Of a DNA stretch of 64,000 nucleotides, positions 28,141-43,435 are shown piece by piece (within the stretch, counting starts at the first letter, position 1; every line of letters starts with the position of its first letter). Made by a program: the position numbers and the translations under genes. This DNA comes from Vallicoccus soli (GTDB taxonomy: Bacteria; Actinomycetota; Actinomycetes; Motilibacterales; Motilibacteraceae), in assembly GCF_003594885.1 (NCBI RefSeq), contig NZ_QZEZ01000002.1:1-64000 (forward strand), given 5' to 3'. Below the pieces are notes generated by a model. It saw only the letters and a list, made by a program, of their open reading frames with translations. It searched no databases and had not been told where the DNA came from.

Positions 28141-28742
28141 GCCCGGCCTCCCTGCGCGACCTCGCCGACCGGGTCCGGGCCCTGCCCCCGCGCGCGGGCG
28201 GCACCGTGGTCGTGGGCGTCGACGGGCGCTCCGGGTCGGGCAAGACGACCTTCGCCCGCCGGCTCGTCGCTGCGCTGCGCGACGCCGGCGCCGACGCGCG
28301 CACGCTGCACCTCGACGACGTCTACCCGGGCTGGGACGGCCTCGCCGCCGGCGCGCGGGCCCTGTGCGCCGACGTCCTCGAGGCTCTCGCCACCGGTCGC
28401 CCCGCCGGGTACCGCCGCTGGTCCTGGGTCCGGTCCGAGCCCGCGGGACGGGCCGAGGTGCGCCCGGGCGGGGTGCTCGTGGTCGAGGGCGTCGGCGCCG
28501 GCGCGCGCTGCGCCCGCCCGCGGCTGTCGCTGCTCGTGTGGCTCGACGCCCCGGCGCCGTTGCGCCGGCAGCGGGCCCTGGCGCGCGACGGGGAGGCGTA
28601 CGCCCCCCACTGGGACCGCTGGGCGGCGCAGGAGGAGGCGCACCACGCCGCGGAGGGGACCCGGGCGGCGGCCGGGCTGCTGCTCGACGGCGCGGCCCCG
28701 CCGCCGGGCCCGGACGACCCGCTGCCCCTGCTCCCCCGCTGA
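28137..28742 (+). CDS. uridine-kinase-like P-loop NTPase
   Basis: 201-residue nucleoside/sugar-kinase-like protein with a Walker A motif GVDGRSGSGKTTFARR (about 25-40). An acidic stretch LHLDDVYPGWD resembles the uridine-kinase substrate Asp region, and VLVVEGVGAG is a Walker B-like strand. The substrate is uncertain; related actinobacterial proteins are annotated uridine kinase. It is coupled to the GntR gene by GTGA, so the two are co-translated. A pyrimidine salvage role would fit the catabolic region but is not shown. Confidence 0.75.
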   Translation: MSPASLRDLADRVRALPPRAGGTVVVGVDGRSGSGKTTFARRLVAALRDAGADARTLHLDDVYPGWDGLAAGARALCADVLEALATGRPAGYRRWSWVRSEPAGRAEVRPGGVLVVEGVGAGARCARPRLSLLVWLDAPAPLRRQRALARDGEAYAPHWDRWAAQEEAHHAAEGTRAAAGLLLDGAAPPPGPDDPLPLLPR

Positions 28743-28747
28743 ACGCG

Positions 28748-28791
28748 CCGCGGCGCCGGCACCCCCCTCGCGGGGGGCGCCGGCGCCGCGG
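28748..28791. terminator. bidirectional terminator hairpin
   Basis: The outer arms CCGCGGCGCCGGC (28748-28760) and GCCGGCGCCGCGG (28779-28791) are perfectly complementary. An inner CCCCCC/GGGGGG stem encloses a TCGC loop, with a single A-C mismatch between the two. It lies between the convergent kinase gene and the giant secreted-protein gene. Confidence 0.82.
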
Positions 28792-28810
28792 GCCGTACGG
28801 GTGGTGCCGC

Positions 28811-31800
28811 TCAGCCGACCGGGACGATCTCGATCGCGCTGACCTTCGCGTTCTCGACCCGGCGGATGAAGTCGATCGTCACCCGCCCGTCGGTGATGGT
28901 CACCGGGAACTCCCTGACGACCGCCCGGTCGATCGCCCCCGCGGCCGCGCGGACGTCGAACCGGCTGAGGACCTCGGTCCCCTCGAGCCGCACGTCGAAG
29001 ACGCGCTGGCCGACGCCGGTCTTGTTGAGCTCCGCGAAGTGCAGCCGGACGGTGTAGGCGCCGTTGGTGACCGGCACGTCGAACCCGAAGGCCCGCGAGC
29101 CGACCGGCACGACGGCGCCGGGGGCCGTCGCGCCGCCCGTCCACTCGGACCGGTAGAGCGCCTGGTTGGTGCCCGCCGGCAGACCGGTGATGGTGTCGTC
29201 CTCGGTGTGGGCGAAGCCGCCGCTCACCCGGCCGCTGCAGGCCGTGGTGGACGAGCACGCCGCCCACGTCGTCCCGCCGACCGTCTGCGCCGGGCCGCCC
29301 GCGTTGATGCGGACGGTCGGGCGCGCCGGCGGGGTCGTGGTGACCGGCAGGACCTCGATCGCCGACACCTTGGCCTGGTTGACCGTGGAGCTGAAGGCGA
29401 TGTCGACCCGGCCGTCGGTGACGGGCACCTGGAACTCGCGGACCACCGCGGTCATCGGCGCGGCCACCGCGTTGAGGTCGAGGTTGGCGACCTCCACGGG
29501 ACCACCCTCGATGTTCGCGCTGAGCACCCGCTTGCCGGTGCCGCCGGCGCCGCCACCCGTCGCGCCGAAGTAGATCTCGGCGAAGTGCAGGCGGACGGTG
29601 TAGGTGCCGTTGGCGACCGGGATGCCGTAGCTGAACGGCACCAGGTTCCCGGTGGCGCTGCGCTCCGTCCGGTACAGCACGTCGTCGGTGGTGCCGGCGA
29701 TCGCGCTGACCTGGGCGTTGCTGTAGCTCTTGCCCCCGGTGAACCACTGGTCGGCCAGCCAGCTGACCCCGCCGGTGGTGACGGCGCCGCCGCCGGCGTT
29801 GATGCGGACCGGCTGCTGCGTCGTCGTCCCCGGCCGGGTGGCCGAGACCGCCGCCGGGCGGGGCGACTCGTTGCCGGCCGTGTCGGTCGCGGTGACCTGG
29901 TACCAGGACGCCGCGCCCGCCGGAGCCGTCGTGTCGGTGAACGTCGTGCCGGTGAGCAGCGCGCCGCCCAGCTTCGTGTACGTCCCCGTGGCCGAGGAGG
30001 CCCGGTAGACCGAGTAGCCGGCCAGGTCGCCCGCCGTGCTCGCGCCCCAGGAGAGCGCGATCCCGGTCTGGGACCCGGTGGCCGTGAGCCCGGTCACCGC
30101 CGCGGGGGCGGTGGTGTCGGGCCGCGTCGCGGACGCCGTCGCCGAGCGGGCGGACTGGTTGCCCGACCGGTCGGTCGCGGTGACCTGGTAGTAGGACGCG
30201 GCGCCCTGCGGGGCGCTCGGGTCGGCGAACGTCGTGCCCGTGATCAGCGACGTCGTCAGCGCCGTCCACGGCCCCGTGGCCGCGGAGGACCGGTAGACCG
30301 TGTAGCCCGCGAGGTCGCCCGCCGTGCTCGCGCTCCAGGAGAGCGCCACGCCGGTGGCCGAGCCCGTGGCCGTGAGGCCCGTGACGACGGCCGGCGGCGT
30401 CGTGTCGGGCGCCGGCCGGGTGGCCGTCGCCGTCGCCGAGCGGGCGGACTCGTTCCCCGCGCGGTCCACCGCGGTGACCTGGTACGACGACGCGGCGTCG
30501 ACCGGGGCGGCGGTGTCGCTGAACGTCGTGCCGGTGAGCAGCGCGCCGTTCAGCTTGGTGTACGTCCCCGTGGGCGAGGACGCCCGGTAGACGTTGTAGC
30601 CCGCGAGGTCGGCCTCGGTCCGCGCCGTCCAGGAGAGCGTGTTCCCGGCGAGGGCGCCGGTGGCCGTCAGGCCGGCCGGGGCGCCCGGTGCCGTCGTGTC
30701 GGGCAGGACGGGGAGGATCTCGATCGCCGAGACCTTCGCGTTCTCCACCCGGCGCAGGAAGTCGATCGTGACCTTCCCGTCGGTGACGGTGACGGGGAAC
30801 TCCCGGACCACGGCCCGGTCGATCCCGCCGGCGGCGGCCCAGACGTCGAAGGCGGTGAGGACCGTGGAGCCCTCGAGCCGGACGTCGAAGGTGCGCTGCC
30901 CCGCGCCGGTCTTGTTCAGCTCGGCGAAGTGCAGGCGGACCGCGTAGGGGCCGTTGACGACCGGGACGTCGAACCCGAAGGCCCGCTGCCCGACCGGGAC
31001 GACCCCGGTGCCGGTGGCGCCGCCGGTCCACTCCGTCTGGAACACCGCGTTGTTGAGCCCGGCGGGGATGCCGGTGACGGTGTCGGCCTCGGAGTAGGCG
31101 AAGCCGCCGCTCACCCAGCCGCTGCACGCCGTGGTGGCCGCGCAGGCGGACCAGGTGGTGCCGCCGACCGTCTGCGCCGCGCCGCCCGCGTTGATGCGGA
31201 CGGAGGTCGGCGCCGGCGGGGCCGGCGTCGTGACCGTGGCGGTCGCGGACGCCGCGGAGGCGTTGTCCGAGCTGTCGAGCGCGACGACGCGGTAGCCGTA
31301 GGCCGTGCTGGGGGCCGCGGTGCTGTCGGTGTAGGCCGAGGCCCGCACCGGCGTCGCGGTCAGCTTGGCGAAGGCGCCGGTGCCGGTGGCGCGGTAGACG
31401 TCGTACCCGACGACGTCGGCCTCGCCGTTGTCGGCCCAGTCGAGGGCCACGCCCGTGGTGGACGCCGTGGCCGCGAGGCCGGTCGGCGCCGCCGGGGCGG
31501 TGGTGTCCACCGGGCAGGTGCCCTGGCAGAGGACCTCGATCGCGGCGATCGACGGGTAGTCGGCCGTGGCCCGGAAGGCCAGGTCGAGGACCCCGTCGGT
31601 CACGGTGACGCCGCGGACCGGGAGGACGACGGCGGTGTTGAGCCCGCCGGCGGCCGCGTAGACGTCGAACCCGCGGCGCACGACCTTGCCCTCGGCCTCG
31701 ATGTCGAACACCCGCCGCCCGACCGCGTTGTTGCCCGCGGCGCGCTCGGCGAAGTGCAGGCGCAGGTCGACCGTGCCGGCCGCCCTCGTCGGCAGCGCGT

Positions 31801-34800
31801 AGGTCAGGACCCGCTGGTCCTGCGCCACGTTGCCCACGTTCCCGCGGTAGGTGCGGTACAGGACGTCGTCCGTCGTGCCCGCGATCTCCTGCGTCGTGCT
31901 CGCGCCCTCGGCGGGAGCCGTCGCCGGCGAGTAGCGCCCGGCGTCGGTCGTCCAGACCTGGCCCTTGCTGTCGGTGTACGGCGCGGAGCCGGCCACGTCC
32001 AGGCGGTGCAGGGCCTCGCGCTGGTCGGCGCCCGCGGTCGGGTCGCCGGCGGTGACCGCGAAGGAGTCGTACGTCGCCGTGAAGGCGGCGCCGCCCTTGT
32101 GGGCCACGATCAGGCCGGCCTTCGACTGGGCGTCGAAGATCGTGCCCCTGGTGCCGGCCGGCACCGTCCACGCCGTCGGCAGCACCTGGAGGGTGCCCCC
32201 GTCGACCCGGTACGCCGCCCGCACGGTCCCGGCGGTGGCGTCGCCGATGAGCACCAGCTCGAGCGAGCCCACCGTCGCCGGGCCCGGGACCGGCACCGCG
32301 GTGCCGACCGTCGCGCCCGTGCCGCCCTGCTCGGCGTACAGCTCGATGCTCGGGACGCCGCTGCGGTTGATGACGGCGACCTTGACGAAGTTGTCCTGGT
32401 TCGCCCCGAGCATCACGCCCGCCTGCTCGCTGCCGGCGTCGAAGCCGGCGACCGGGCCGAGCAGGCGACCGGTGACCGCGAAGGTCCCGGCGGTGCCGTC
32501 GAAGGCCGTCTGCAGGCCGTTGACGAGCGTGTTGTCCGTGCCGGCGTTGCTGCCGGTCGTCGCGCCGCCGTTGGAGGTCACCGCGAGGGTGCCCGGAGCG
32601 GAGGTGACGACGTCCAGCAGCGGCGCCTGGTACGAGCTGGTGGTGCCGGTGGTGTCCTGCTTGTTGCGCTGGACGGAGGTGAAGCCGGTCCCCGTCCCGT
32701 CCTTGTCCGCGACCGTCCCGGGCACCGCGGCGTCGAAGCCGAGCTGCAGGGAGGACGCGCCGGGCACCGGGGCCGGGGCGGCCGGGTCGACGGCCAGCTC
32801 CGGGCGCATGCCCGTCACCAGGTAGACGTTGTCCTGGTAGTCGTAGTTGATCCCGGAGTAGTCCATCGCGACGATCCAGCTGCCCGGCACCACGGCGCCG
32901 GCGCGGTCGCGGACCGGCCAGAACCGCATGTGGTGCCCGCAGGTGCCGACGCAGCCGTTCTCGACGTCCACGGCGCTGTTGTTGCGCGCCGGGTCGCTCC
33001 ACTCGCTGTCGATCCGGAGCCCGAAGGCGCCGGCCGGCGAGAAGGTGCCCGAGGCGTACTGCGTCGTCGAGCCGTTGCGGTGCGGCAGCACCGACTGGCC
33101 GTCGACCCCCGCGTGGGTGACGACGTTCGTCACCGACGACGAGCCCTTGGCGTGCCACCCGATGGTCGCGGTGTTGCCCTGGGTGTGGAAGGCCGCCAGC
33201 TGGCGGACCGTGACCGGCGCCGTGGCGCTGGTGCGGACCCAGTAGGGGCTGAGCACCTCGTCGCCGACGGCGGTGACCAGGCCCTGCTGGTTGATGGACT
33301 GCCCGGCGCTGGTGATCGCCGTGCGGTAGCCGAAGAGCCGCGTGATCTCGGTGAGGTCGGGCTCCTGGCCGCCCTCGGACTGGCTCTGCCAGAAGCCGGC
33401 GAGCTCCACCGGCAGGCTCGGCTCGTCCACGTCGTCCGTCGTGACGGTCAGCGACCCGGTCCAGAGACCGGCGGCGCTGCCCGCCGCCGTGGCGGTGAAG
33501 CGCACGGGCACGTCGAGCGAGGCGCCGGCCGCGACGAGCGCCGGGGCGGCCTGCGGGTCCACGAGGGCGAAGGGCCCGGTGACGGCCAGGCCGGTCACGT
33601 TGAGCGCATCGGTCCCGGTGTTGCGGATCCGCAGGGTGGCGACGTCGTGGACGCCGTTGACGGGGAAGAACGGCCCGGTGACCGGGTCGCAGGCCGCGGT
33701 GTCCCGGCAGCGCTTGCCCGTCTCGGGGTTCTGGATCCGGTTCATGACGAGCCGGTCCGCGAACGGCACCCCGTCGACGTTCTCGAGCACGACGTTCGCC
33801 GTGCTCGGGGCGGCCGTGACGACGCTGAAGGTCGTCGTCGCCGAGGTGGCGATGTTGCCGGCCACGTCGACCGCCCGGGCCCGCACGGTGTGCGCGCCCG
33901 TCGTCGTGACCTCGACCGGGCCGGTGTAGGTCCGGAAGGCCCCGCCGTCGAGGCTGTACGAGGTCGAGGCGACCCCGCTGCCCGCGTCGGTCGCGGTGAC
34001 CGTGACCGTGGCGGTGTTCTTGAAGGTGCCCGCGGACTGCTGCAGGCCGCTGACCGTCGCGGTGACCGTCGGCGCCGTGGTGTCGCCGGTGACCGTGGTG
34101 CGGTCCACGTCGACGTACGTGACCTTCGTGTTGGTGCCGCCGACCGCGTCGACGGTGAGCCGGCCGTCGCTGACCGGGACGGTGACCCGCCCGGTCTGGA
34201 ACGGCGTCGCCGTGGTCGGGACGAAGCCCGCCACCGCGACCTGGCCCTCGACCCGGACCGTGTGGACCGAGTCGGTGAAGGACGCGTCACCGGCCTCGAC
34301 GGTCACGGTGTACGTGCCGTTCGGGACCGCGAGCTCCCAGGCGCCGTCGCCGTTCGGCGACTGGGTCGCCGTCGGCTGCATGAGGACGAGCGTGCGCGAG
34401 CGCTGCTCGGCCGTCCCCGTCCGCTCACGGGTGAGGCTGCCCATGTCGAGCGGGGTGCCCGTGCCGGGGCGGACCCAGCCGCGGCCGGCCGCGTCCGAGT
34501 ACGGCGCGCCGCTGTCGGCGGTGTAGCCCGCCGCCACCGGGCCGGCCGGGGTGGTGAAGTCCACCCGCGCCAGGGCCGTGCCGGTCGCGCTGTCCGCCGC
34601 GGGGCGGACGCCGGTGATCCGGAACAGGTAGTCCTGGTAGTCGCCGTTGGTCGCGTCCTCGAAGCCCACGAGGTACGTGCCCGGGACGACCTTGCCGGAG
34701 CGGTCCTTGGCCGGCCAGGTGCGCGCCGCGTGCACGGTGCGCCCCGCCCCGACGTTGAGCCCGTCCTGCGTGTAGCTGACCCGGCCGAACGACTTGGAGT

Positions 34801-37800
34801 CGACGTACAGGCCGAACGGCGCCGTGCCCGGGTCGAACGAGGCGCTCCCGCCCGGCTGGACCGCCGGGTTGAGGGTCTGCTCGTTGTCGAGCGCGATGAC
34901 GCCGACCTCGCGCAGCTCCGGGTCGCCCGCGGTCGCCGGGTACCACCCGAAGGGCAGCACCTCGTCCGGGGAGTAGCGCGCCACCGGGGTGAGCGTGACC
35001 GGCGCGGTGCCGGCCTTGACGAACTGCTGGGCGGCGACCTCCTCGCCGATCGGCGCGGCGCCCGTGCCCAGGATCAGGCCGGTACCGCCCACGTCGACCG
35101 GGTGGCCGAGGGTGTCCACGACCGCCTTGAGCGGGGGCTCGTTGCCCCCCTGCTCGCCGGGGGTCGCCAGGCCGTGCAGCCCGACCTCGACGAGCGGGCT
35201 GCCCGTGCTGGTCGTGGCGATCCGCAGCGCCGCCTCGAGGTGGCCCAGCGGCTGGGCGCTCGTCGGGGCGAAGCGCACCTGGAACGTCGCCGTCGCGCCC
35301 GCGGCCACCTCCTGCGCGCCGCCGACGAGGGCGAACGCGCCGGCGTGGGTGCCGGTGACGGACGGGGTGACGGTGACCGGCTCGAGCGTCTCGTTGGTCA
35401 CGACCACGGACCGCGTCGGGATCGTCGTCCCGCGGACCCCGCTGAAGACCAGCTCGGGGACGCTCGTCGTGACCTTCCCCTCGACCGGTCCGGTCGTCGT
35501 GGCCGGCTTGACGTTGCGCAGGACCAGCACCGCGTCCTGGTAGTCCACCGGGGACGGGACGTCCTCGGGGGCCACCACGTACGCGTTCGGCACCAGGGCG
35601 CCGGCGGCGTCCTTCAGCGGGTACACGCGCACCTTGTGCGGCGTGGCGCCGCCCCAGGTGTTGAGCGCGTCCTCGCTGTAGGCGACCCGGTTGCTGAGGC
35701 CGTGCCAGGTGAAGTCGAGCCCGAAGGGGGTCTCGAGGTCGTACTCGCCGACGTCGGTGACGGCGGGGAGCAGCTGCTGGTTGGAGCTGTTCGGGCCGCG
35801 GAAGAGCACGGTGCGCTCGGCCGGCCTGCCCGTGGTGTGCGCGGCGACCGTCACGACGTACGGGTTCGCCGCCGGCCCGTCGGGGCCGTAGAGGGACAGC
35901 GGCTGCACCTCGACCGGGTGGTCGAAGGCGGCCTTGGTGAAGGACTGCACCGCGACCTCGTCGCCGAGCATGCCGCTGGTGGCGGGCATGTCGTTGTTCG
36001 TCGGGTCGGGGTCGCCGGTCTGCACCGGGACCTCCAGCGTCTGGAGGATCCACTGCAGGGACGGCTCGTTGCTGCCCCCGGTGCCCAGCGTGCCGAGCCC
36101 GCGCAGGCGCGTGGTCGCGGTGGCCGAGCGGGGGTCGTCGGAGGAGACCGACAGGGTCGCGGTGCGCGGTCCCGCCGTGGTCGGCGCGAACGCGACCGGG
36201 ATGGTCATCGTCTCGCCCGGCTGGAGCACGGCCGGGAAGGGCTTGCTCGGCGTGCCGACGGTGAAGCGCGCCGCGTCGGTGCCGGTGGCGGAGGCCCCGC
36301 CGACGGTGAGCGCGCCGCCGCCGGTGTTCCGGACGGTGACCTGCTGCGCCGCCGAGGCGGCGCCGCCCTGCACGTCGGAGAAGACGAGGCGCTCGGTGAC
36401 CTCGGCGCGGCCGGTGGAGCCGGCCCCGCCCTGCGGCTTGAGCAGGACGATGCCGGTGGTCGCCGGGTTGTCCGTCAGCTCGGTGACGTAGAGGTTGCCG
36501 GTCGCGACGTCCTCCGCGACGTCGAGCGGCTGGCGGAAGCCGGTGAAGCCGGTGAGCCCGGTGACCGGCGCGGACAGCGCCCCCTGGGCGTCGACGTCGA
36601 ACGCGGCCAGCTCCTGGTTGGCGCTGTAGCGGACGACGACGAGCTTGCCGGCGAAGGCGCCGCCGAAGGCCCGGGTGTTCTTGTACTCGATGGTGCCGTT
36701 GGCGCTGGCGTGCAGGCCCGCGTCGTAGACGCCCGCGAGGTCGTAGTTCGGGTCCGCCGCCTGGCCCAGCGGGTAGGCGTTGACCTTGAACAGCGGGTTG
36801 CCGGTGTACCCGTTCGGGTTGCCCGCGTTGAGCACGTACTCGCAGCGCACCGGGTTCGGGTGGCCGTAGTACTTGCCCTTCCTGACGTCGAAGACGTAGT
36901 CCGTCTCCGCCTGGCGGTTGCCCGTGATGGCGGGCGCGGACGGGCCGCTGTAGCCGCCGTCGGGGCGGTTCGCGCAGGACGCCGGCAGCGGGTTCGGCGT
37001 GGCCGGCGTGTTGCCGCCCGCGGCCGAGCCGTTGGTGCCGGAGTAGAGGTGCCCGTTGCTGTGCCACACGAGGTCGTACGCGTTGCGCACGCCCGTCGCG
37101 TAGAGGGTCAGCGGGGCGCCCGGCGCGTACGGGTCGTACGTGCCGGTGTGGGCCGGGACGCCGCTGCGGGCCGGGGCCTGCAGGTCCGGCGTGGCGACGT
37201 CGACCGGCAGCTGGGCCGGCAGCTTGGCCGGGTCCAGCTCGAGGACGGCCGCCGAGAGCAGGTGCTCCGGGCGCTTCCACGTGCCGTCGGTGGCGCCCAT
37301 GGCGTTCATGGAGCCCTGGGTGACGTAGAGCTTGCCGTCGCGGATCGCGATGGAGTTCGTCTCGTGGTCCTTGATCGACCGCGGCAGGTTGACCGCGACC
37401 TCCTGGTAGTTCTCCAGGTTCGGGCCCGAGAGGCGCGAGATCGCGCCGGTCGCGTTCGGCACGTCCTGGCCGAGGTACGCGTAGTTGTCGGTGATCCACA
37501 GGACCGGGTTCGACGGCGTCGACGCGGGGTCGAACGCCATGCCGATCACGGTGCGGTTGGGAGCGCCCTCCCAGCCGCGCTGCACGGCGTGCGTGCGGAC
37601 CGTGTCGATGACCTGCTCGCCCGAGAGCGTGCCGTCCTGCCCGATCGTCCAGCGGTAGATCTGGCCGGTGATGCTGCCGGCGTAGAGCTTGCCGTCGGGG
37701 CCGACGACCACCGAGGTGTACATCTTGCCGGCCGAGGCGCCGGAGGCGGCCTTGTCGAACGCCGCCCGCACGGTGCCGGGGGGCTGCTCGGTCCCGGTGC

Positions 37801-40800
37801 CGCCGGCGGTGGTGAAGACGCTGGAGAAGGGCAGGAAGGAGCGCCCGCCCTTGTCCTTGACCGCCTCGGTGATCTCGAAGCGGTACAGCGTGCTCGGGCT
37901 CAGCGGCGCGTCGGCCTGGAAGGAGACCGTGTCGCCGCCGCCGCTGGTGACGCCGCGGCCGGCGACGGGCGTGCCGTCGAGGACGCGGACCAGGCGGACG
38001 TTGCCCCCGCCGAGGCTGGTCTCGTCGACCGCGCCGTCGGTGGGGTTGAGCGCGTTGTCGGTGGTGACCGACGCGTTGGTCACGACGCCGGTGGCGCCGT
38101 TGGCCGGGGTGACGGCCGTCGAGAACGGCCGCCCGCCGCGGTCGACGCCGACGACGTCGACGTAGTCGATCTTGGTGTTGGTGCCGCCCGCCGGCGACAG
38201 CGTGAGCCGGCCGTCGGACACCACGACGGTGCGGGTCGCCGTGGCGGACTTCGCCGTGGCGGTGGGCACGTGCGCGGCGATCGCGTTCTGGTTCTCGATG
38301 CCGATCCAGTTGGTGCTGTCGACCGGGGTGCCGGCGTCGCCGACCGCCACGGTGACGACGTACGCGCCGTTGGGGACGGCGAGCTCCCAGCTGCCCGGGG
38401 TCTTGACCCCGCCGGTGACGGTGGCCGGCAGCTGCATGTGCAGGAAGGTGGCCATCCGCAGGTCCGCGAGGCCCGCCGCCGGCATGCCGCTGGAGGCGAC
38501 GTTCCGGTTGCGGCCGTTGCCGACCAGCGAGAGCGGGGTGCCGGTGCCGACCCCGACCCAGCCGTACGACTGCCCGGTGCCCTGGCCCGTGCTGGTGCGG
38601 GGGCCGAACGCCTGGCCCCAGTCGGCGAGGTAGCCCGCCGGCGGGGTCGTCGCCTCGTCCTGGAAGTTGACCTTGACGGTGGTGGTGCCGGTGCCGGGGG
38701 CCGGGACGACCGAGCGGACCGCCGAGGCGGCCGACTCGTTGCCGGCCTGGTCGACGGCGGTGACCACGTAGTGGTACGTCGTGCCGTTGGTCAGGCCGGT
38801 GTCGGTGAGGCTCAGGCCCACGACCGGGCTGGTGTTGACCTTCGAGGCCGCGCTGGGCACGACGACGTCGGTCGCGCCGCGGTACACGTTGTACGCCACC
38901 GCGTCGCTGCTCGTGCTCGCGCCCCACGTGAGGGTGGCGCTGCCGTCGCCGGGCAGGGCGGACAGGCCGCTCGGCGCCGCCGGCGGCGTCGTGTCGGGGA
39001 GCACCGGCCCGGCGCTCGCGATGTCGACGAAGCCGAGCTTGGTGTTGTTGCCGCCGACCGCGTCGACGGTGAGCAGGCCGTCGGTGACGTCGACCGTCAC
39101 GGTGCCGGTCTCGTACTCCTGCGCCGCCGTGGCCTGGAAGGCGTCCACCGCGGTGACGCCCTCGACCCGCACCGTGTGGGTGCTGTCGTAGCAGGGCGCG
39201 GGGCAGCCGGTCTTGCCGTTCCCCGGCTGGTCGCCGACCCCGACGGTGACGGTGTAGCGGCCGTTCGGGACGACCTTCTCCCACGCGCCCGACGTCAGGT
39301 TCCCGTTGCCCGTGGGCAGCGGGACGATGTCGCCGTACTGCATGTGGATCACCGAGTCGAGGCGCTCGTCGACCCCGGCGCGCGCCCGGTCGCGGGTGTT
39401 GGCCGACAGGTCCAGCGGGGTGTGGGCGGCGCCCGCCAGGCTGTCCTGGCGGACCCAGCCCTGCCCGGCCGCGACCGAGAAGGCCGCCCCCGTGTCCTTG
39501 GTGTAGCCGGGGGCGGCGGCCCCCGCCGCGGTCTGGAAGTCCACCTTGGCGGACAGGGCCGGCTGGGCCGGCGTCGCCGTGGCGGTACCCGACGCGACGG
39601 ACTCGTTGCCGCTGCGGTCGACGGCGGTGACCACGTACGTCGACGTGCTCCCCGCCGGAGCACCGCTGTCGGTGGCCGAGGTCGCCGTGACCGGCGCCGC
39701 GTTGACCTTGACCCGCGGGGCGGTCCCCGTCGAGCGGTAGACGTTGTAGCCCGCCAGGTCGGTGGCGGTCACCGCGGTCCAGGCCAGGCGCACGTCCGTC
39801 CCGTCGACCGTGGCGGAGAGCCCGGTCGGCGCGGCGGGCGCGGTGGTGTCGGCCGGGGCGGTGGGCGTGGCGCTGGCCACCGCGCTGGGCGCGGAGGCGT
39901 TGCGCAGCTGGTCCTCCGCGGTGAGCACGTAGTGGTACGTCGTGCCCGGCTCGAGGTCGCTGTCGAGGAACGTGCGCCCGGTGCGCCCGGTGAGCAGGCC
40001 GACGAGGTGCTCTTCGTCGGTCGGCACGGACGCGGTGGTGCTCCGGTAGATCCGGTAGCCGCGCAGGTCGGGCTCGGTGTTCGCCGTCCAGCGCAGCGTG
40101 ACGCTGGCGGGCCCCGCCGTGGCGGTGACGCCCCGGGGCGCGGCGGGCGCGGTGGTGTCGCGCGGCGTCGCGCTCGCGACCCCGCTGCGCCCGGACGCGT
40201 TGCCGGCCAGGTCGGACGCGGTGACGTAGTAGTGGTACGTCGTGCCGTTGAGCGCCGTGGCGTCGGTGAACGCGGTGGCGGTCAGCGGCAGCGCGTTGAG
40301 CTTCGTCCCGGCGCCGTCGGCGGTGGCCGCGCGGAAGACGTCGTAGCCGACGACGTCGCCGCTGGTGCTCGCGGTCCAGGCGAGCTCGACGCGCGCATCG
40401 CCGGCGGTCGCGGCGAGGCCGGTCGGGGCGGCGGGCGCCTCGGTGTCCGGCGCGGCGGTCGGCGTGGCCTCGACGCCGGCGGGCAGGGCCGAGACGTTGC
40501 CGGCGGTGTCGACCGCGACGACGACGTAGTGGTACGTCGTGCCGTTGGTGAGCCCCTCGTCCAGGTACGCCGGCGTCGGCGAGGAGCCGACGTGCTCGGC
40601 GTCCGTGAGCTCGCGGATCGGGCCGGTGGCGCGGTAGACCCGGTAGCCGCTCACGTCGGTGGCGGTGCTCGGCGTCCAGCGCAGGGCCACGCTCTCGACG
40701 CCGGCGACGGCGACGAGGTCGGCCACGGCGGGCGGCGCGGTGCGGTCGGCCGGGGTGGCGGTGCCGCGGACCGGCGCCGACTCGTTGCCGGCGGCGTCGA

Positions 40801-43342
40801 CCGCGGTGACGGCGTAGCGGTACGACGTGCCGTTCTGCACCGCGCTGTCGTCGTACGTCCTGCCCGTCCGCGGGGCGGGGGTCACGCGGTTCGCGGGGAC
40901 GAGCTCCGGGTCGGAGCCGGTGGCGCGGTAGACGTGGTAGCCCGCGAGGTCGGCGTCCTCGACGGCGTCCCAGGCGAGGTGCACGAGGCCGTCGCGGCCG
41001 TCGGCCACGAAGCCCGCCGGCGCGGCCGGGGCCGCGGTGTCGGCCACCTCGACCTCGAGGTGGGTGATCTTCGTGTTGGTGCCACCGGTCGCGTCGAGCG
41101 TGAGGCGGCCGTCGGCCACCTCGACGACGGCGGTGCGGGTCGCGAACTCCTGGGCGGCGGTCGCCTGGAAGCCGTCCACGACGGGCTCGCCCTCGGCCAG
41201 CACCCGGTGCACCGAGTCGTAGCAGGGCGCCGGGCAGCCGGTCCTGGCCGCGCCGGCCTGGTCGCCGACGCCGACGGTCACCGCGTAGGCGCCGTTCGGG
41301 ACCGCGACCTCGTACGAGCCGTCGGGCGTCGCGTTGGTCGTGAGGCCGCTGCCCTGCATGTGCAGGATCGAGGCCTGCAGCGGGGTCACGCCCGCGCGCG
41401 CCGGGCGGGTGCGGCCCGCGGCGGCGAGGCTCAGCGGCTCGTGCGTGCCGGGCTCGACCCAGCCGCTGCCGCGGGCGTTGCCGAACGCCTGGCCGTAGTC
41501 CTTGCGGTAGCCCTCGACCGCCGCGCCGGCCTGGTCGACGAAGTCGACCCTCAGCGGCAGCTCGGCGACGGCGGGCGCCGCGGCGTCCGGGGTGGCGGTC
41601 ACGGTCGCCGAGGCCGCGGAGCGCTGCCCGGCACGGTCGACGGCGACGACCGCGTAGCGGTAGGTCGTGTCGTTCGCGGCGGTCGTGTCCTCGAACGCCG
41701 AGGCGCCGAGCGGCTGGTCGCCGTTCAGCGGGGTGCCCGTCGTCGGGACGGTGGTGCCGGTGCTGCGGAAGACGTCGTACCCGGCGAGGTCGTCCTCGCC
41801 GCCGTCGGCCCAGTCGAGCGCGACGCGGGCGTCGCCGGCGGTGGCCGTGAGGCCGGTGGGCGCGGCGGGCTTGGCGTCGGCCGGCGTGGGCGTGACGGTG
41901 ATGTAGTCGATCTTGGTGTTGGTGCCGCCCTCGGCGTCGACGGTGAGGAACCCGTCGGCCACCTGGACGCCGGTCAGCGTCGCGGTCCTGAAGCGGGCGG
42001 CACCGGTGGTCGTGCTGGTCACGGGGAACCTGTCGACCGCGACGGTGCCCTCGACGCGGAGGCGGTGCGTCGTCGGGTCGCTGCCCGGCGACGCGTCGCC
42101 GACGGCCACCTCGACGTCGTAGGAGCCCGCCGGCACGGCGAGCTGCCAGGCGCCCTCCTGCTTGATCGTGCCGGCGGCGGGCGCCGGGACGTCGTCGGCC
42201 TGCATGTGCATGAGCGAGGCCAGGCGCGGGTCGAGCCCCGCCTCGGTCCGCACGCGGCCGTTGCCGACGAGGTTGAGGGGGACCCGGGTGCCGGGGACGA
42301 CCCAGCCGTACCCGCGGTCGTTCGCGTAGTTCTGGCCGTGGTCCTTGAGGTAGCCGGTGACGGCGGGGCCGGCCTGGCTGCTGAAGTTCACCTGCACGGG
42401 CAGGGGCAGCGCGGTCGGCTCGGCGGCGTCGGGCATCCCCCACGCGAGCGCGGCCGGCGCCTGCACGCCGTCGGCGTCGACCGACGCCACGGCGTAGTAG
42501 CGCACGGTGCCGCGCGGCGCCGTGGTGTCCTCGTACGCGCTGCCGGTCACGGTGGCGGCCGGGGTGCCGGTCGTCGGCACCGGGAGCGTGGCGGAGGTGA
42601 AGACCTCGTACGCCGTCGCGCCCTCGGCGTCGTCCCAGTCGAGGCTCACGCCCGAGGTGCCCGAGGTCGCGGAGACGCTCGCGACCGGGTTCGGCGTGGA
42701 CTCGATGGTGACGTACTGGAGCTTGGTGTTGGTGCCCCCCACGGCGTCGACCGTCAGGACCCCGTCGGTGACGGTGACCGAGGTCGTGCCCGTGGTGAGC
42801 CGCGACGGGGTGCAGTTGGCCGCCGTGGAGCGGGCGAAGCCGGAGACGACCGGGACGCCCTCGACGTTGACGGTGTGCGACTCCGCGTCGTTGCCGAGGT
42901 TGGCGTCGCCGACGCCGACGGTGACCTCGTACGTGCCGTTCGGCAGCGCGTGGTCCCAGGCCACCGGGGTCGCGTTGTTCGTCGCGTTCGTGGCCGGCGC
43001 CTGCATGTGGACGAACGTGCGCTGCTGCGGCGTCAGGGCGGTGCAGGTGCTGCGGTCGCGGGTGTTCAGCGGGACGCCGAAGGGCACGTGGGCGCCCTGC
43101 AGGCTGTCCTGGCGCACCCAGCCGTAGCCCCGCGCGCCGTCGAACGCGGCGCCGGTGTCCTTGGTGAACCCCGCCGGCACGGCGGAGGCGTCGGGCTGGA
43201 AGTTGACCTTCACGCTCAGGTCCGGCGTGACGGCAGCTCGGGCGACGCCGGCGAGCGCGGGCGTCATGGTCGCCAGCATCCCGAGCAGGACGGTGACGAC
43301 CGTGCTCGCGGCGAGCCGCGAGCGCAGGTGTTCGGATGACAT
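28811..43342 (-). CDS. giant secreted multidomain protein (malectin-like, FN3-like and sorbosone-dehydrogenase-like propeller)
   Basis: About 4,843 residues in one uninterrupted frame. A signal peptide (LRSRLAASTVVTVLLGMLAT, cleavage after ...GVARA near residue 36) indicates export. I count eight or nine malectin-like carbohydrate-binding modules (recurring pattern GGTNTKxxYVxV or RVENAKVSAIEI). About a dozen FN3-like repeats follow the pattern PAAPTGLxAT...DLAGYxVYRS. Near residues 1850-2310 a beta-propeller (VVVGPDGKLYAGSITGQIYR, YATGVRNAYDLVW) resembles sorbosone dehydrogenases. Choice-of-anchor-D-like repeats, three copies of an unusual module of about 185 residues, an OmpL47-like segment and a LamG-like region follow. 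There is no sortase motif or C-terminal anchor, so it is probably released or held by carbohydrate binding. The start is uncertain: ATGs at 43342 and 43357 and a GTG at 43381 are in frame, none with a strong ribosome site. Role: extracellular polysaccharide or glycoprotein binding is inferred. Confidence 0.9.
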   Translation of the reverse strand: MSSEHLRSRLAASTVVTVLLGMLATMTPALAGVARAAVTPDLSVKVNFQPDASAVPAGFTKDTGAAFDGARGYGWVRQDSLQGAHVPFGVPLNTRDRSTCTALTPQQRTFVHMQAPATNATNNATPVAWDHALPNGTYEVTVGVGDANLGNDAESHTVNVEGVPVVSGFARSTAANCTPSRLTTGTTSVTVTDGVLTVDAVGGTNTKLQYVTIESTPNPVASVSATSGTSGVSLDWDDAEGATAYEVFTSATLPVPTTGTPAATVTGSAYEDTTAPRGTVRYYAVASVDADGVQAPAALAWGMPDAAEPTALPLPVQVNFSSQAGPAVTGYLKDHGQNYANDRGYGWVVPGTRVPLNLVGNGRVRTEAGLDPRLASLMHMQADDVPAPAAGTIKQEGAWQLAVPAGSYDVEVAVGDASPGSDPTTHRLRVEGTVAVDRFPVTSTTTGAARFRTATLTGVQVADGFLTVDAEGGTNTKIDYITVTPTPADAKPAAPTGLTATAGDARVALDWADGGEDDLAGYDVFRSTGTTVPTTGTPLNGDQPLGASAFEDTTAANDTTYRYAVVAVDRAGQRSAASATVTATPDAAAPAVAELPLRVDFVDQAGAAVEGYRKDYGQAFGNARGSGWVEPGTHEPLSLAAAGRTRPARAGVTPLQASILHMQGSGLTTNATPDGSYEVAVPNGAYAVTVGVGDQAGAARTGCPAPCYDSVHRVLAEGEPVVDGFQATAAQEFATRTAVVEVADGRLTLDATGGTNTKITHLEVEVADTAAPAAPAGFVADGRDGLVHLAWDAVEDADLAGYHVYRATGSDPELVPANRVTPAPRTGRTYDDSAVQNGTSYRYAVTAVDAAGNESAPVRGTATPADRTAPPAVADLVAVAGVESVALRWTPSTATDVSGYRVYRATGPIRELTDAEHVGSSPTPAYLDEGLTNGTTYHYVVVAVDTAGNVSALPAGVEATPTAAPDTEAPAAPTGLAATAGDARVELAWTASTSGDVVGYDVFRAATADGAGTKLNALPLTATAFTDATALNGTTYHYYVTASDLAGNASGRSGVASATPRDTTAPAAPRGVTATAGPASVTLRWTANTEPDLRGYRIYRSTTASVPTDEEHLVGLLTGRTGRTFLDSDLEPGTTYHYVLTAEDQLRNASAPSAVASATPTAPADTTAPAAPTGLSATVDGTDVRLAWTAVTATDLAGYNVYRSTGTAPRVKVNAAPVTATSATDSGAPAGSTSTYVVTAVDRSGNESVASGTATATPAQPALSAKVDFQTAAGAAAPGYTKDTGAAFSVAAGQGWVRQDSLAGAAHTPLDLSANTRDRARAGVDERLDSVIHMQYGDIVPLPTGNGNLTSGAWEKVVPNGRYTVTVGVGDQPGNGKTGCPAPCYDSTHTVRVEGVTAVDAFQATAAQEYETGTVTVDVTDGLLTVDAVGGNNTKLGFVDIASAGPVLPDTTPPAAPSGLSALPGDGSATLTWGASTSSDAVAYNVYRGATDVVVPSAASKVNTSPVVGLSLTDTGLTNGTTYHYVVTAVDQAGNESAASAVRSVVPAPGTGTTTVKVNFQDEATTPPAGYLADWGQAFGPRTSTGQGTGQSYGWVGVGTGTPLSLVGNGRNRNVASSGMPAAGLADLRMATFLHMQLPATVTGGVKTPGSWELAVPNGAYVVTVAVGDAGTPVDSTNWIGIENQNAIAAHVPTATAKSATATRTVVVSDGRLTLSPAGGTNTKIDYVDVVGVDRGGRPFSTAVTPANGATGVVTNASVTTDNALNPTDGAVDETSLGGGNVRLVRVLDGTPVAGRGVTSGGGDTVSFQADAPLSPSTLYRFEITEAVKDKGGRSFLPFSSVFTTAGGTGTEQPPGTVRAAFDKAASGASAGKMYTSVVVGPDGKLYAGSITGQIYRWTIGQDGTLSGEQVIDTVRTHAVQRGWEGAPNRTVIGMAFDPASTPSNPVLWITDNYAYLGQDVPNATGAISRLSGPNLENYQEVAVNLPRSIKDHETNSIAIRDGKLYVTQGSMNAMGATDGTWKRPEHLLSAAVLELDPAKLPAQLPVDVATPDLQAPARSGVPAHTGTYDPYAPGAPLTLYATGVRNAYDLVWHSNGHLYSGTNGSAAGGNTPATPNPLPASCANRPDGGYSGPSAPAITGNRQAETDYVFDVRKGKYYGHPNPVRCEYVLNAGNPNGYTGNPLFKVNAYPLGQAADPNYDLAGVYDAGLHASANGTIEYKNTRAFGGAFAGKLVVVRYSANQELAAFDVDAQGALSAPVTGLTGFTGFRQPLDVAEDVATGNLYVTELTDNPATTGIVLLKPQGGAGSTGRAEVTERLVFSDVQGGAASAAQQVTVRNTGGGALTVGGASATGTDAARFTVGTPSKPFPAVLQPGETMTIPVAFAPTTAGPRTATLSVSSDDPRSATATTRLRGLGTLGTGGSNEPSLQWILQTLEVPVQTGDPDPTNNDMPATSGMLGDEVAVQSFTKAAFDHPVEVQPLSLYGPDGPAANPYVVTVAAHTTGRPAERTVLFRGPNSSNQQLLPAVTDVGEYDLETPFGLDFTWHGLSNRVAYSEDALNTWGGATPHKVRVYPLKDAAGALVPNAYVVAPEDVPSPVDYQDAVLVLRNVKPATTTGPVEGKVTTSVPELVFSGVRGTTIPTRSVVVTNETLEPVTVTPSVTGTHAGAFALVGGAQEVAAGATATFQVRFAPTSAQPLGHLEAALRIATTSTGSPLVEVGLHGLATPGEQGGNEPPLKAVVDTLGHPVDVGGTGLILGTGAAPIGEEVAAQQFVKAGTAPVTLTPVARYSPDEVLPFGWYPATAGDPELREVGVIALDNEQTLNPAVQPGGSASFDPGTAPFGLYVDSKSFGRVSYTQDGLNVGAGRTVHAARTWPAKDRSGKVVPGTYLVGFEDATNGDYQDYLFRITGVRPAADSATGTALARVDFTTPAGPVAAGYTADSGAPYSDAAGRGWVRPGTGTPLDMGSLTRERTGTAEQRSRTLVLMQPTATQSPNGDGAWELAVPNGTYTVTVEAGDASFTDSVHTVRVEGQVAVAGFVPTTATPFQTGRVTVPVSDGRLTVDAVGGTNTKVTYVDVDRTTVTGDTTAPTVTATVSGLQQSAGTFKNTATVTVTATDAGSGVASTSYSLDGGAFRTYTGPVEVTTTGAHTVRARAVDVAGNIATSATTTFSVVTAAPSTANVVLENVDGVPFADRLVMNRIQNPETGKRCRDTAACDPVTGPFFPVNGVHDVATLRIRNTGTDALNVTGLAVTGPFALVDPQAAPALVAAGASLDVPVRFTATAAGSAAGLWTGSLTVTTDDVDEPSLPVELAGFWQSQSEGGQEPDLTEITRLFGYRTAITSAGQSINQQGLVTAVGDEVLSPYWVRTSATAPVTVRQLAAFHTQGNTATIGWHAKGSSSVTNVVTHAGVDGQSVLPHRNGSTTQYASGTFSPAGAFGLRIDSEWSDPARNNSAVDVENGCVGTCGHHMRFWPVRDRAGAVVPGSWIVAMDYSGINYDYQDNVYLVTGMRPELAVDPAAPAPVPGASSLQLGFDAAVPGTVADKDGTGTGFTSVQRNKQDTTGTTSSYQAPLLDVVTSAPGTLAVTSNGGATTGSNAGTDNTLVNGLQTAFDGTAGTFAVTGRLLGPVAGFDAGSEQAGVMLGANQDNFVKVAVINRSGVPSIELYAEQGGTGATVGTAVPVPGPATVGSLELVLIGDATAGTVRAAYRVDGGTLQVLPTAWTVPAGTRGTIFDAQSKAGLIVAHKGGAAFTATYDSFAVTAGDPTAGADQREALHRLDVAGSAPYTDSKGQVWTTDAGRYSPATAPAEGASTTQEIAGTTDDVLYRTYRGNVGNVAQDQRVLTYALPTRAAGTVDLRLHFAERAAGNNAVGRRVFDIEAEGKVVRRGFDVYAAAGGLNTAVVLPVRGVTVTDGVLDLAFRATADYPSIAAIEVLCQGTCPVDTTAPAAPTGLAATASTTGVALDWADNGEADVVGYDVYRATGTGAFAKLTATPVRASAYTDSTAAPSTAYGYRVVALDSSDNASAASATATVTTPAPPAPTSVRINAGGAAQTVGGTTWSACAATTACSGWVSGGFAYSEADTVTGIPAGLNNAVFQTEWTGGATGTGVVPVGQRAFGFDVPVVNGPYAVRLHFAELNKTGAGQRTFDVRLEGSTVLTAFDVWAAAGGIDRAVVREFPVTVTDGKVTIDFLRRVENAKVSAIEILPVLPDTTAPGAPAGLTATGALAGNTLSWTARTEADLAGYNVYRASSPTGTYTKLNGALLTGTTFSDTAAPVDAASSYQVTAVDRAGNESARSATATATRPAPDTTPPAVVTGLTATGSATGVALSWSASTAGDLAGYTVYRSSAATGPWTALTTSLITGTTFADPSAPQGAASYYQVTATDRSGNQSARSATASATRPDTTAPAAVTGLTATGSQTGIALSWGASTAGDLAGYSVYRASSATGTYTKLGGALLTGTTFTDTTAPAGAASWYQVTATDTAGNESPRPAAVSATRPGTTTQQPVRINAGGGAVTTGGVSWLADQWFTGGKSYSNAQVSAIAGTTDDVLYRTERSATGNLVPFSYGIPVANGTYTVRLHFAEIYFGATGGGAGGTGKRVLSANIEGGPVEVANLDLNAVAAPMTAVVREFQVPVTDGRVDIAFSSTVNQAKVSAIEVLPVTTTPPARPTVRINAGGPAQTVGGTTWAACSSTTACSGRVSGGFAHTEDDTITGLPAGTNQALYRSEWTGGATAPGAVVPVGSRAFGFDVPVTNGAYTVRLHFAELNKTGVGQRVFDVRLEGTEVLSRFDVRAAAGAIDRAVVREFPVTITDGRVTIDFIRRVENAKVSAIEIVPVG

Positions 43343-43435
43343 GCGGGAGCCCCCCATGGGCAGGCAGAGACGAGCCTTCACGCTGAGGGTGCGGTGCGGG
43401 AGGGGTCGGGCGACATGCCCCGTCGCGGCTGTTCT

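Follow-up and report, generated by a model that had tools for sequence, protein, structure and literature searches.

In a 64,000-nucleotide stretch of the Vallicoccus soli genome (contig NZ_QZEZ01000002.1, positions 1 to 64,000; hereafter the window), an open reading frame of 4856 residues (28814..43381, minus strand) combines malectin domains, fibronectin III repeats and ASH/choice-of-anchor-D repeats with three copies of a module of 182 or 190 residues. We consider it moderately probable that this module is a divergent, so far unlisted branch of the DUF4114/LecB fold, which would bind Ca2+ via a loop marked by the tetrad DYQD and probably also binds carbohydrate.

The copies lie on the minus strand at 35501..36070 (copy 1; residues 2438-2627, 190 residues), 34598..35143 (copy 2; residues 2747-2928, 182 residues) and 32798..33367 (copy 3; residues 3339-3528, 190 residues). 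With copy 1 as the sole query, copies 2 and 3 are recovered at expectation values (E) of 8.4e-19 and 3.5e-7, and the Smith-Waterman scores of 214 (copies 1-2), 125 (copies 1-3) and 181 (copies 2-3) compare with maxima of 57, 52 and 61 over 500 shuffles each. The same query finds these three places only in the whole genome (4.04 Mb) at E≤0.001, and the module profile agrees. The three related modules of the first-pass annotation are therefore real, at coordinates within a few bases of those it gave. Its motifs are correct apart from small details: DYQD is exact in all three copies, whereas GDEV reads GEEV in copy 2, the NEP start is QEP in copy 3, and the YPxKD motif takes the forms YPLKD, WPAKD and WPVRD. 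Including relatives from other genomes and plasmids, 39 modules were read (a first set of 35, then three, then one). Sequence searches of Pfam, NCBIfam, PHROGs and PDB gave no accepted match for the module, and no description of it was found in the open-access literature on DUF4114, choice-of-anchor D and LecB-type lectins. The claim that it is undescribed thus holds against Pfam, NCBIfam, PHROGs and the open-access literature searched; the outcome named beforehand as refuting it, a significant match between profile and a well-characterised domain, was not found. In PHROGs, copy 3 has matches at E 0.16 and 0.45 and copies 1 and 2 have none; phage records contain no match to copy 2. The PDB sequence search with copy 1 or profile A1 returned nothing useful, and no LecB-family chain at E≤10. 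Pyridox_oxase_2 and PPOX, listed for copy 1 (E 0.016 and 0.1), were rejected, as only 32-36 residues match and Pyridox_oxase_2 is listed for a single one of the 35 modules.

The predicted fold points to the LecB-type lectins. AlphaFold2 models, built from 12-row alignments of the window and L004-L006 sequences, reached a predicted local distance difference test (pLDDT) of 77.7 and a predicted template modelling score (pTM) of 0.80 for copy 2, and 68.7 and 0.75, respectively, for copy 3. VIA-align ranked the top 1000 PDB chains of Foldseek, and the comparison extends to the folds among those chains. For copy 2, the first 17 PDB entries all belong to the LecB family (Z 5.8-7.4 over 109-117 residues), with the C-terminal domain of BC2L-C as the best (Z 7.4, root-mean-square deviation (rmsd) 3.5, 114 residues aligned), accompanied by CV-IIL (6.8), thrombocorticin (6.7), PA-IIL, RS-IIL, BclA and BC2L-A; BON1 is next at 4.8, followed by C2 domains. 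For copy 3, the first 17 entries are again of the LecB family (Z 6.9 to 5.2) and the next stands at 4.4. The rmsd to LecB-family entries is 3.4-4.7 for both models. C2 domains, which make up most of the next-best matches, are likewise calcium-binding beta-sandwiches, but their Z values are 4.7 and below, compared with 5.2-7.4 for the lectins. The LecB-like part spans model residues ~38 to 182, leaving the N-terminal helix and loop outside; loops 21-30 and 121-140 have low confidence. That the module shares the LecB/DUF4114 beta-sandwich fold is fairly well supported by these models. It has the same predicted fold as LecB, PA-IIL, BclA, BC2L-C and thrombocorticin, and the loop of copy 2 equals that of LecB in length and in six of its ten residues, but the module is ~70 residues longer than these lectins and sits within long chains.

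The DYQD tetrads (35534..35545, residues 2613-2616, in copy 1; 34631..34642, residues 2914-2917, in copy 2; 32831..32842, residues 3514-3517, in copy 3; all minus strand) mark the proposed Ca2+ loop, and the giant protein has no further instance of the pattern D[FYW][QN]D. This pattern is present in all 35 modules of the first set, where it begins 15-16 residues before the module ends, and again in the four modules added later, a universality that is partly due to selection, given that the search profile was trained on such sequences. The variants among the 35 are DYQD (15), DYND (9), DFQD (7), DWND (2) and DFND (2), and an acidic residue lies 5-9 positions before the tetrad in 30 of them. Over 18 rows, E2, G36, E38, Q98, P102, G157, D176 and D179 are invariant and F116, N137, H145, R148 and P189 nearly so (copy 1 numbering); over the other 17, only P83, F104, D163 and D166 (first-row numbering), the last two being the tetrad. 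In LecB, calcium is coordinated by Glu95, Asp99, Asp101, Asn103, Asp104, the main chain of Asn21 and the Gly114 carboxylate of a neighbouring molecule, and fucose is hydrogen-bonded by Asp96 and, at its O3, by Asp99 (PMC8752737). For thrombocorticin, the calcium ligands are given as D117-N119-D120 with G131*, and N107-D115-D117-D120 (PMC9700728). The aligned ranges end at residue 182 of copy 2 and residue 190 of copy 3 (tetrad 179-182), each against LecB 112. If the last strand is ungapped, D171-YQ-D174 of copy 2 would fall on LecB 101-104, and the tetrad of copy 3 would fall in the same register. Read this way, EDATNGDYQD of copy 2 and EDGTDNDYND of LecB are identical at Glu95, Asp96, Thr98, Asp101, Tyr102 and Asp104, and differ by Asn for Asp99 and Gln for Asn103. 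On account of these matches one calcium site is likely in the module. The sugar-bridging calcium pair is incomplete in the window copies.

A calcium-module lead of the DUF4114 type, raised in the first-pass annotation from the DYQD ending, is borne out by predicted fold and loop anatomy, whereas by sequence it stays below threshold. Domains of DUF4114 (PF13448) close with an acidic loop, E-D...D-x-D-[FY]-[ND]-D, comparable to that of copy 2; an Asn ahead of this loop is conserved, frequently together with a His, and the domains occur in extracellular multidomain proteins. The module differs in that its Asp99 position is mostly Asn and the third tetrad residue is Gln in 22 of 35; furthermore, its NEP...GDEV stretch was not noticed by eye in the 110 residues preceding each of 16 DUF4114 rows. 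The reference rows were drawn from 11 plasmid records with a PF13448 match; of the sixteen rows, 15 exceed its cut-off. No Pfam family is listed for the modules as often as DUF4114 (seven of 35 at E≤1, best 0.0027), every other family being listed for one module. The gathering cut-off of 27 bits is not reached by copy 2 (13.3 bits), the sole window copy with a DUF4114 match, or by the second module of a Salipiger protein (18.8 bits at E 0.0032; E 3.6e-4 in another scan); copies 1 and 3 have no DUF4114 match at E≤10. In hhalign, the score of module against DUF4114 is 21.2, compared with a best of 19.8 among 200 column shuffles, none of which reaches it. Other profile comparisons gave E 0.0045 (35-row profile) and 0.021 (A1 and A4), and the controls E 0.34 (segments upstream of the modules against DUF4114) and E 0.77 (reversed DUF4114 profile). 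A further control, module against upstream segments (E 0.019), was set aside as apparently contaminated, one segment containing a module start. Among the viral models of the BFVD library, copy 2 matches a DUF4114 protein of Orpheovirus best (E 1.4e-4, prob 1.00), the next standing at 3.2e-2. With the DUF4114 rows as PDB queries, the LecB matches start only at E 0.21 and rank below a telomerase subunit (E 0.15). A DUF4114 search of 148 genomes of the class gave no match, but the control genomes were silent too, so that absence is not shown. These comparisons make homology of module and DUF4114 probable, short of proof by sequence. The module is filed as a member of neither PF13448 nor the LecB family; what is proposed is their fold and a like mode of action.

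Some published experiments bear on function. A DUF4114 domain of Acanthamoeba binds mannose-agarose and corneal cells and has a predicted fold resembling BclA; its authors observed no elution by mannose and made no site mutants (PMC11934332). For PilY1.1 of Myxococcus, inactivation of a putative DUF4114 calcium motif (D498A) is described as abolishing motility at the colony level (PMC9109919). LecB binds the matrix polysaccharide Psl (PMC6522473). For the giant protein, each copy would then be a beta-sandwich with an extra N-terminal helix and loop (NEP...GDEV), mounted on an ASH-type immunoglobulin (Ig) repeat. At the D-[FYW]-[QN]-D tetrad, the two invariant Asp residues, together with acidic residues 5-7 positions upstream and the usual Asn two residues before, would form a calcium site near the domain end, and the calcium may order the loop and so create a pocket for sugar hydroxyls of a polysaccharide or glycoprotein. 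Three different modules and the malectin domains could thereby allow a single secreted protein to bind extracellular carbohydrate multivalently. Calcium binding is suggested here by the loop anatomy; sugar binding, for which we argue more weakly, is suggested by the lectin relatives and the carbohydrate-binding partner domains. Adhesion, as first proposed for the module, is a plausible function; we favour a narrower version of it, the calcium-dependent binding of carbohydrate.

The module family is rare and patchy in the genomes sampled, and spans four phyla (Actinomycetota, Deinococcota, Bacteroidota and Pseudomonadota). Copy 1 as query matched seven of 98 related genomes, its own included; three of the seven matches (G008, G013, G095) were dropped, being partial and unconfirmed by the module profile. 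In the phylum sample, the profile matched four of 396 genomes, again including its own. Orthologues with the same three modules were found, in one scan of genome contigs, in Nakamurella endophytica, a metagenome-assembled genome of Nocardioides and Nocardioides aequoreus. Plasmid records with the module come from Deinococcus (2), Persicobacter, Rhizobium (2), Salipiger and Yoonia. In a tree of the 35 modules, the four-row sets of copies 1, 2 and 3 form three separate groups (support 100/100, 97/96 and 98/96); Persicobacter rows group with the copy-1 and copy-2 types, Deinococcus rows with the copy-2 and copy-3 types, and deeper positions on the copy-3 side are taken by a third Persicobacter row and several others. 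Since each type keeps to its own group whatever the genus, the divergence of the three dates far back: by this tree the triplication is old and its types have been maintained.

A malectin, NPCBM, CBM6/35 or galactose-binding-like domain is present in nine of the 15 parent proteins scanned, one of them (L087) exactly at the cut-off; the scan left out eight further parent frames (in L004, L005, L006, L025, L039, L083, L088 and L090). Glycosyltransferase genes, with O-antigen ligase genes too, surround the module genes at both Deinococcus plasmid loci, and the Rhizobium copies adjoin type I secretion genes. The frame ends within six residues of the module in seven of 22 related frames, an arrangement in which a free carboxylate might become available for a dimer site like that of LecB. 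In these seven, 12-17 residues follow the last Asp, as against 10 in LecB and 11 in thrombocorticin. Several loci have features of their own. On a plasmid of Deinococcus QL22 (L024), two separate module proteins, one of which ends in Kelch repeats, flank clustered genes for glycosyltransferases and O-antigen ligase. On the Yoonia plasmid (L080), a CBM6/35 module protein is encoded between a Tn3-family transposase gene and two recombinase genes sharing one protein accession, and the module gene may therefore travel as transposon cargo. The Salipiger plasmid (L079) encodes two modules and a true DUF4114 domain in one protein, and a contig of one related genome (L083; G002, contig 14) has two neighbouring frames, of 969 and 880 residues, in both of which a terminal module ends one residue before the stop.

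Several results weigh against a calcium-dependent lectin. The position two before the tetrad, equivalent to Asp99, is Asn in 28 modules, Pro in three, Gly in three and Cys in one, and Asp in none of the 35; no clear counterpart of LecB Asn21 was seen by eye; and a trans carboxylate of the Gly114 type is impossible for the three window copies, which are internal. Six of the 15 parent proteins scanned (in L081, L082, L083, L084, L085 and L086) have no match to a carbohydrate-binding domain, and calcium dependence of the Acanthamoeba binding is not seen in the part of the report at hand (PMC11934332). On the structural side, the tool itself warns that Z values under 8 can reflect a common arrangement, the 17 top entries are variants (mutants and complexes) of about six or seven different lectins, and the copy 2 and copy 3 models share alignment rows and are not independent. 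Foldseek alone finds no PDB match under E 0.001, and its top-ranked entry is phospholipase C gamma 2 (E 4.1e-3); the lectins come just behind, at TM scores of 0.30-0.42 by query length. In BFVD, the match of copy 2 reaches only TM 0.52, and for copy 3 the DUF4114 model is second in rank (E 0.015). Finally, the hhalign alignment with DUF4114 covers the last third only (the Asn/His region and the loop; E 0.0049, probability 7%).

The main rival is a structural calcium: the fold would be the same, but the DYQD site would only lock the loop and stiffen a long protein, any sugar binding being left to malectin. It owes this standing to the internal copies, which lack a trans C-terminal carboxylate, and to the Asp99 position, which is mostly Asn. 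LecB-type sugar binding uses two calciums and the C-terminal carboxylate of a neighbour, the latter absent from internal copies; one Gly added at the C-terminal end of thrombocorticin diminished fucose binding (PMC9700728), and Asp99, the partner of fucose O3 in LecB, is replaced in the modules. However, the native mannose-binding DUF4114 domain of Acanthamoeba also precedes further repeats (the construct tested being a domain-only fusion), and the persistence of three distinct types across genera suits different ligands better than a passive spacer. We regard a structural calcium as a tentative possibility, less probable than the calcium-dependent carbohydrate-binding module favoured here.

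It is unlikely that the module is an unrelated new beta-sandwich family, perhaps for protein-protein adhesion, with a convergent DxxD calcium loop. Such a family would account for the lack of any significant domain by sequence methods, the borderline and end-limited DUF4114 comparison and the middling Z values. It sits badly with two models that each place one lectin family in the first 17 entries, with the tetrad in the LecB 101-104 register as judged by range ends; in addition, a DUF4114 protein tops another library for copy 2, and the conserved Asn, often with a His, before the loop is common to module and DUF4114. A catalytic or other non-binding module is very improbable, since near-invariant Glu, Gln, His and Arg positions are all that speak for it, against a threefold repeat beside binding domains and a fold that matches lectins first and then mostly C2 domains.

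Starting again from the favoured calcium-dependent lectin, a bolder version can be proposed, which we put forward as speculation and hold to be doubtful as a whole. The modules would constitute a separate calcium-lectin branch that dispenses with the trans C-terminal carboxylate and Asp99 and has been passed horizontally, as a cassette of ASH repeat plus lectin, between four or more phyla. Its three sub-types may read three sugars of a matrix polysaccharide, and modules at the extreme C-terminus elsewhere may build a LecB-like dimer site.

The giant protein is apparently secreted; it has a signal-peptide-like N-terminus and no C-terminal LPXTG, both judged by eye only. Malectin domains (four stretches), fibronectin III repeats (seven), ASH/HYDIN-type Ig repeats and choice_anch_D stretches were found in it. 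As the first-pass annotation had it, a choice-of-anchor-like repeat stands directly N-terminal of the module in all three copies, by matches to NF012200, two of them under the curated cut-off of 45 bits: 36128..36412 before copy 1 (E 8.4e-20), 35201..35500 before copy 2 (E 1.5e-10, 41.6 bits) and the divergent 33425..33646 before copy 3 (E 1.1e-8, 35.5 bits), all on the minus strand. In the wider set, 32 of 35 segments upstream of modules match NF012200 at E≤0.001; a possible candidate for one of the three misses is the Persicobacter row L025_3907, in which the module start was placed too far downstream. Ahead of the first ASH repeat, the region ~36450-37810 (minus strand) resembles a beta-propeller, with a weak SSL_N match at residues 1891-1911. 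A propeller-type match also precedes the module in the relatives L081 (SSL_N) and L080 (GSDH), and the order of propeller and module recalls the DUF4114-plus-propeller layout of PilY1. Opposite the giant gene runs an antisense open frame of 4991 residues (28364-43339, plus strand), most likely an artefact, because such frames are common in G+C-rich DNA. Pfam matches were obtained for eight of ten neighbouring frames scanned, the products being an AtzD/TrzD amidohydrolase, a carboxyl transferase, a GntR regulator, an AAA/PRK-type ATPase, hydantoinase B, a GGDEF-EAL protein, a CoxG-like protein and a CoA-ligase; this content suggests that the genes around the giant gene point to no system.

If the calcium-dependent carbohydrate-binding reading is true, a so far unlisted module, carried by giant secreted proteins in four phyla, would gain a function. 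The reading would also tie the uncharacterised DUF4114 group to the well-studied LecB lectins, through a form unable to use the trans carboxylate, and the minimal two-calcium site needed for sugar binding would become testable on small soluble domains.

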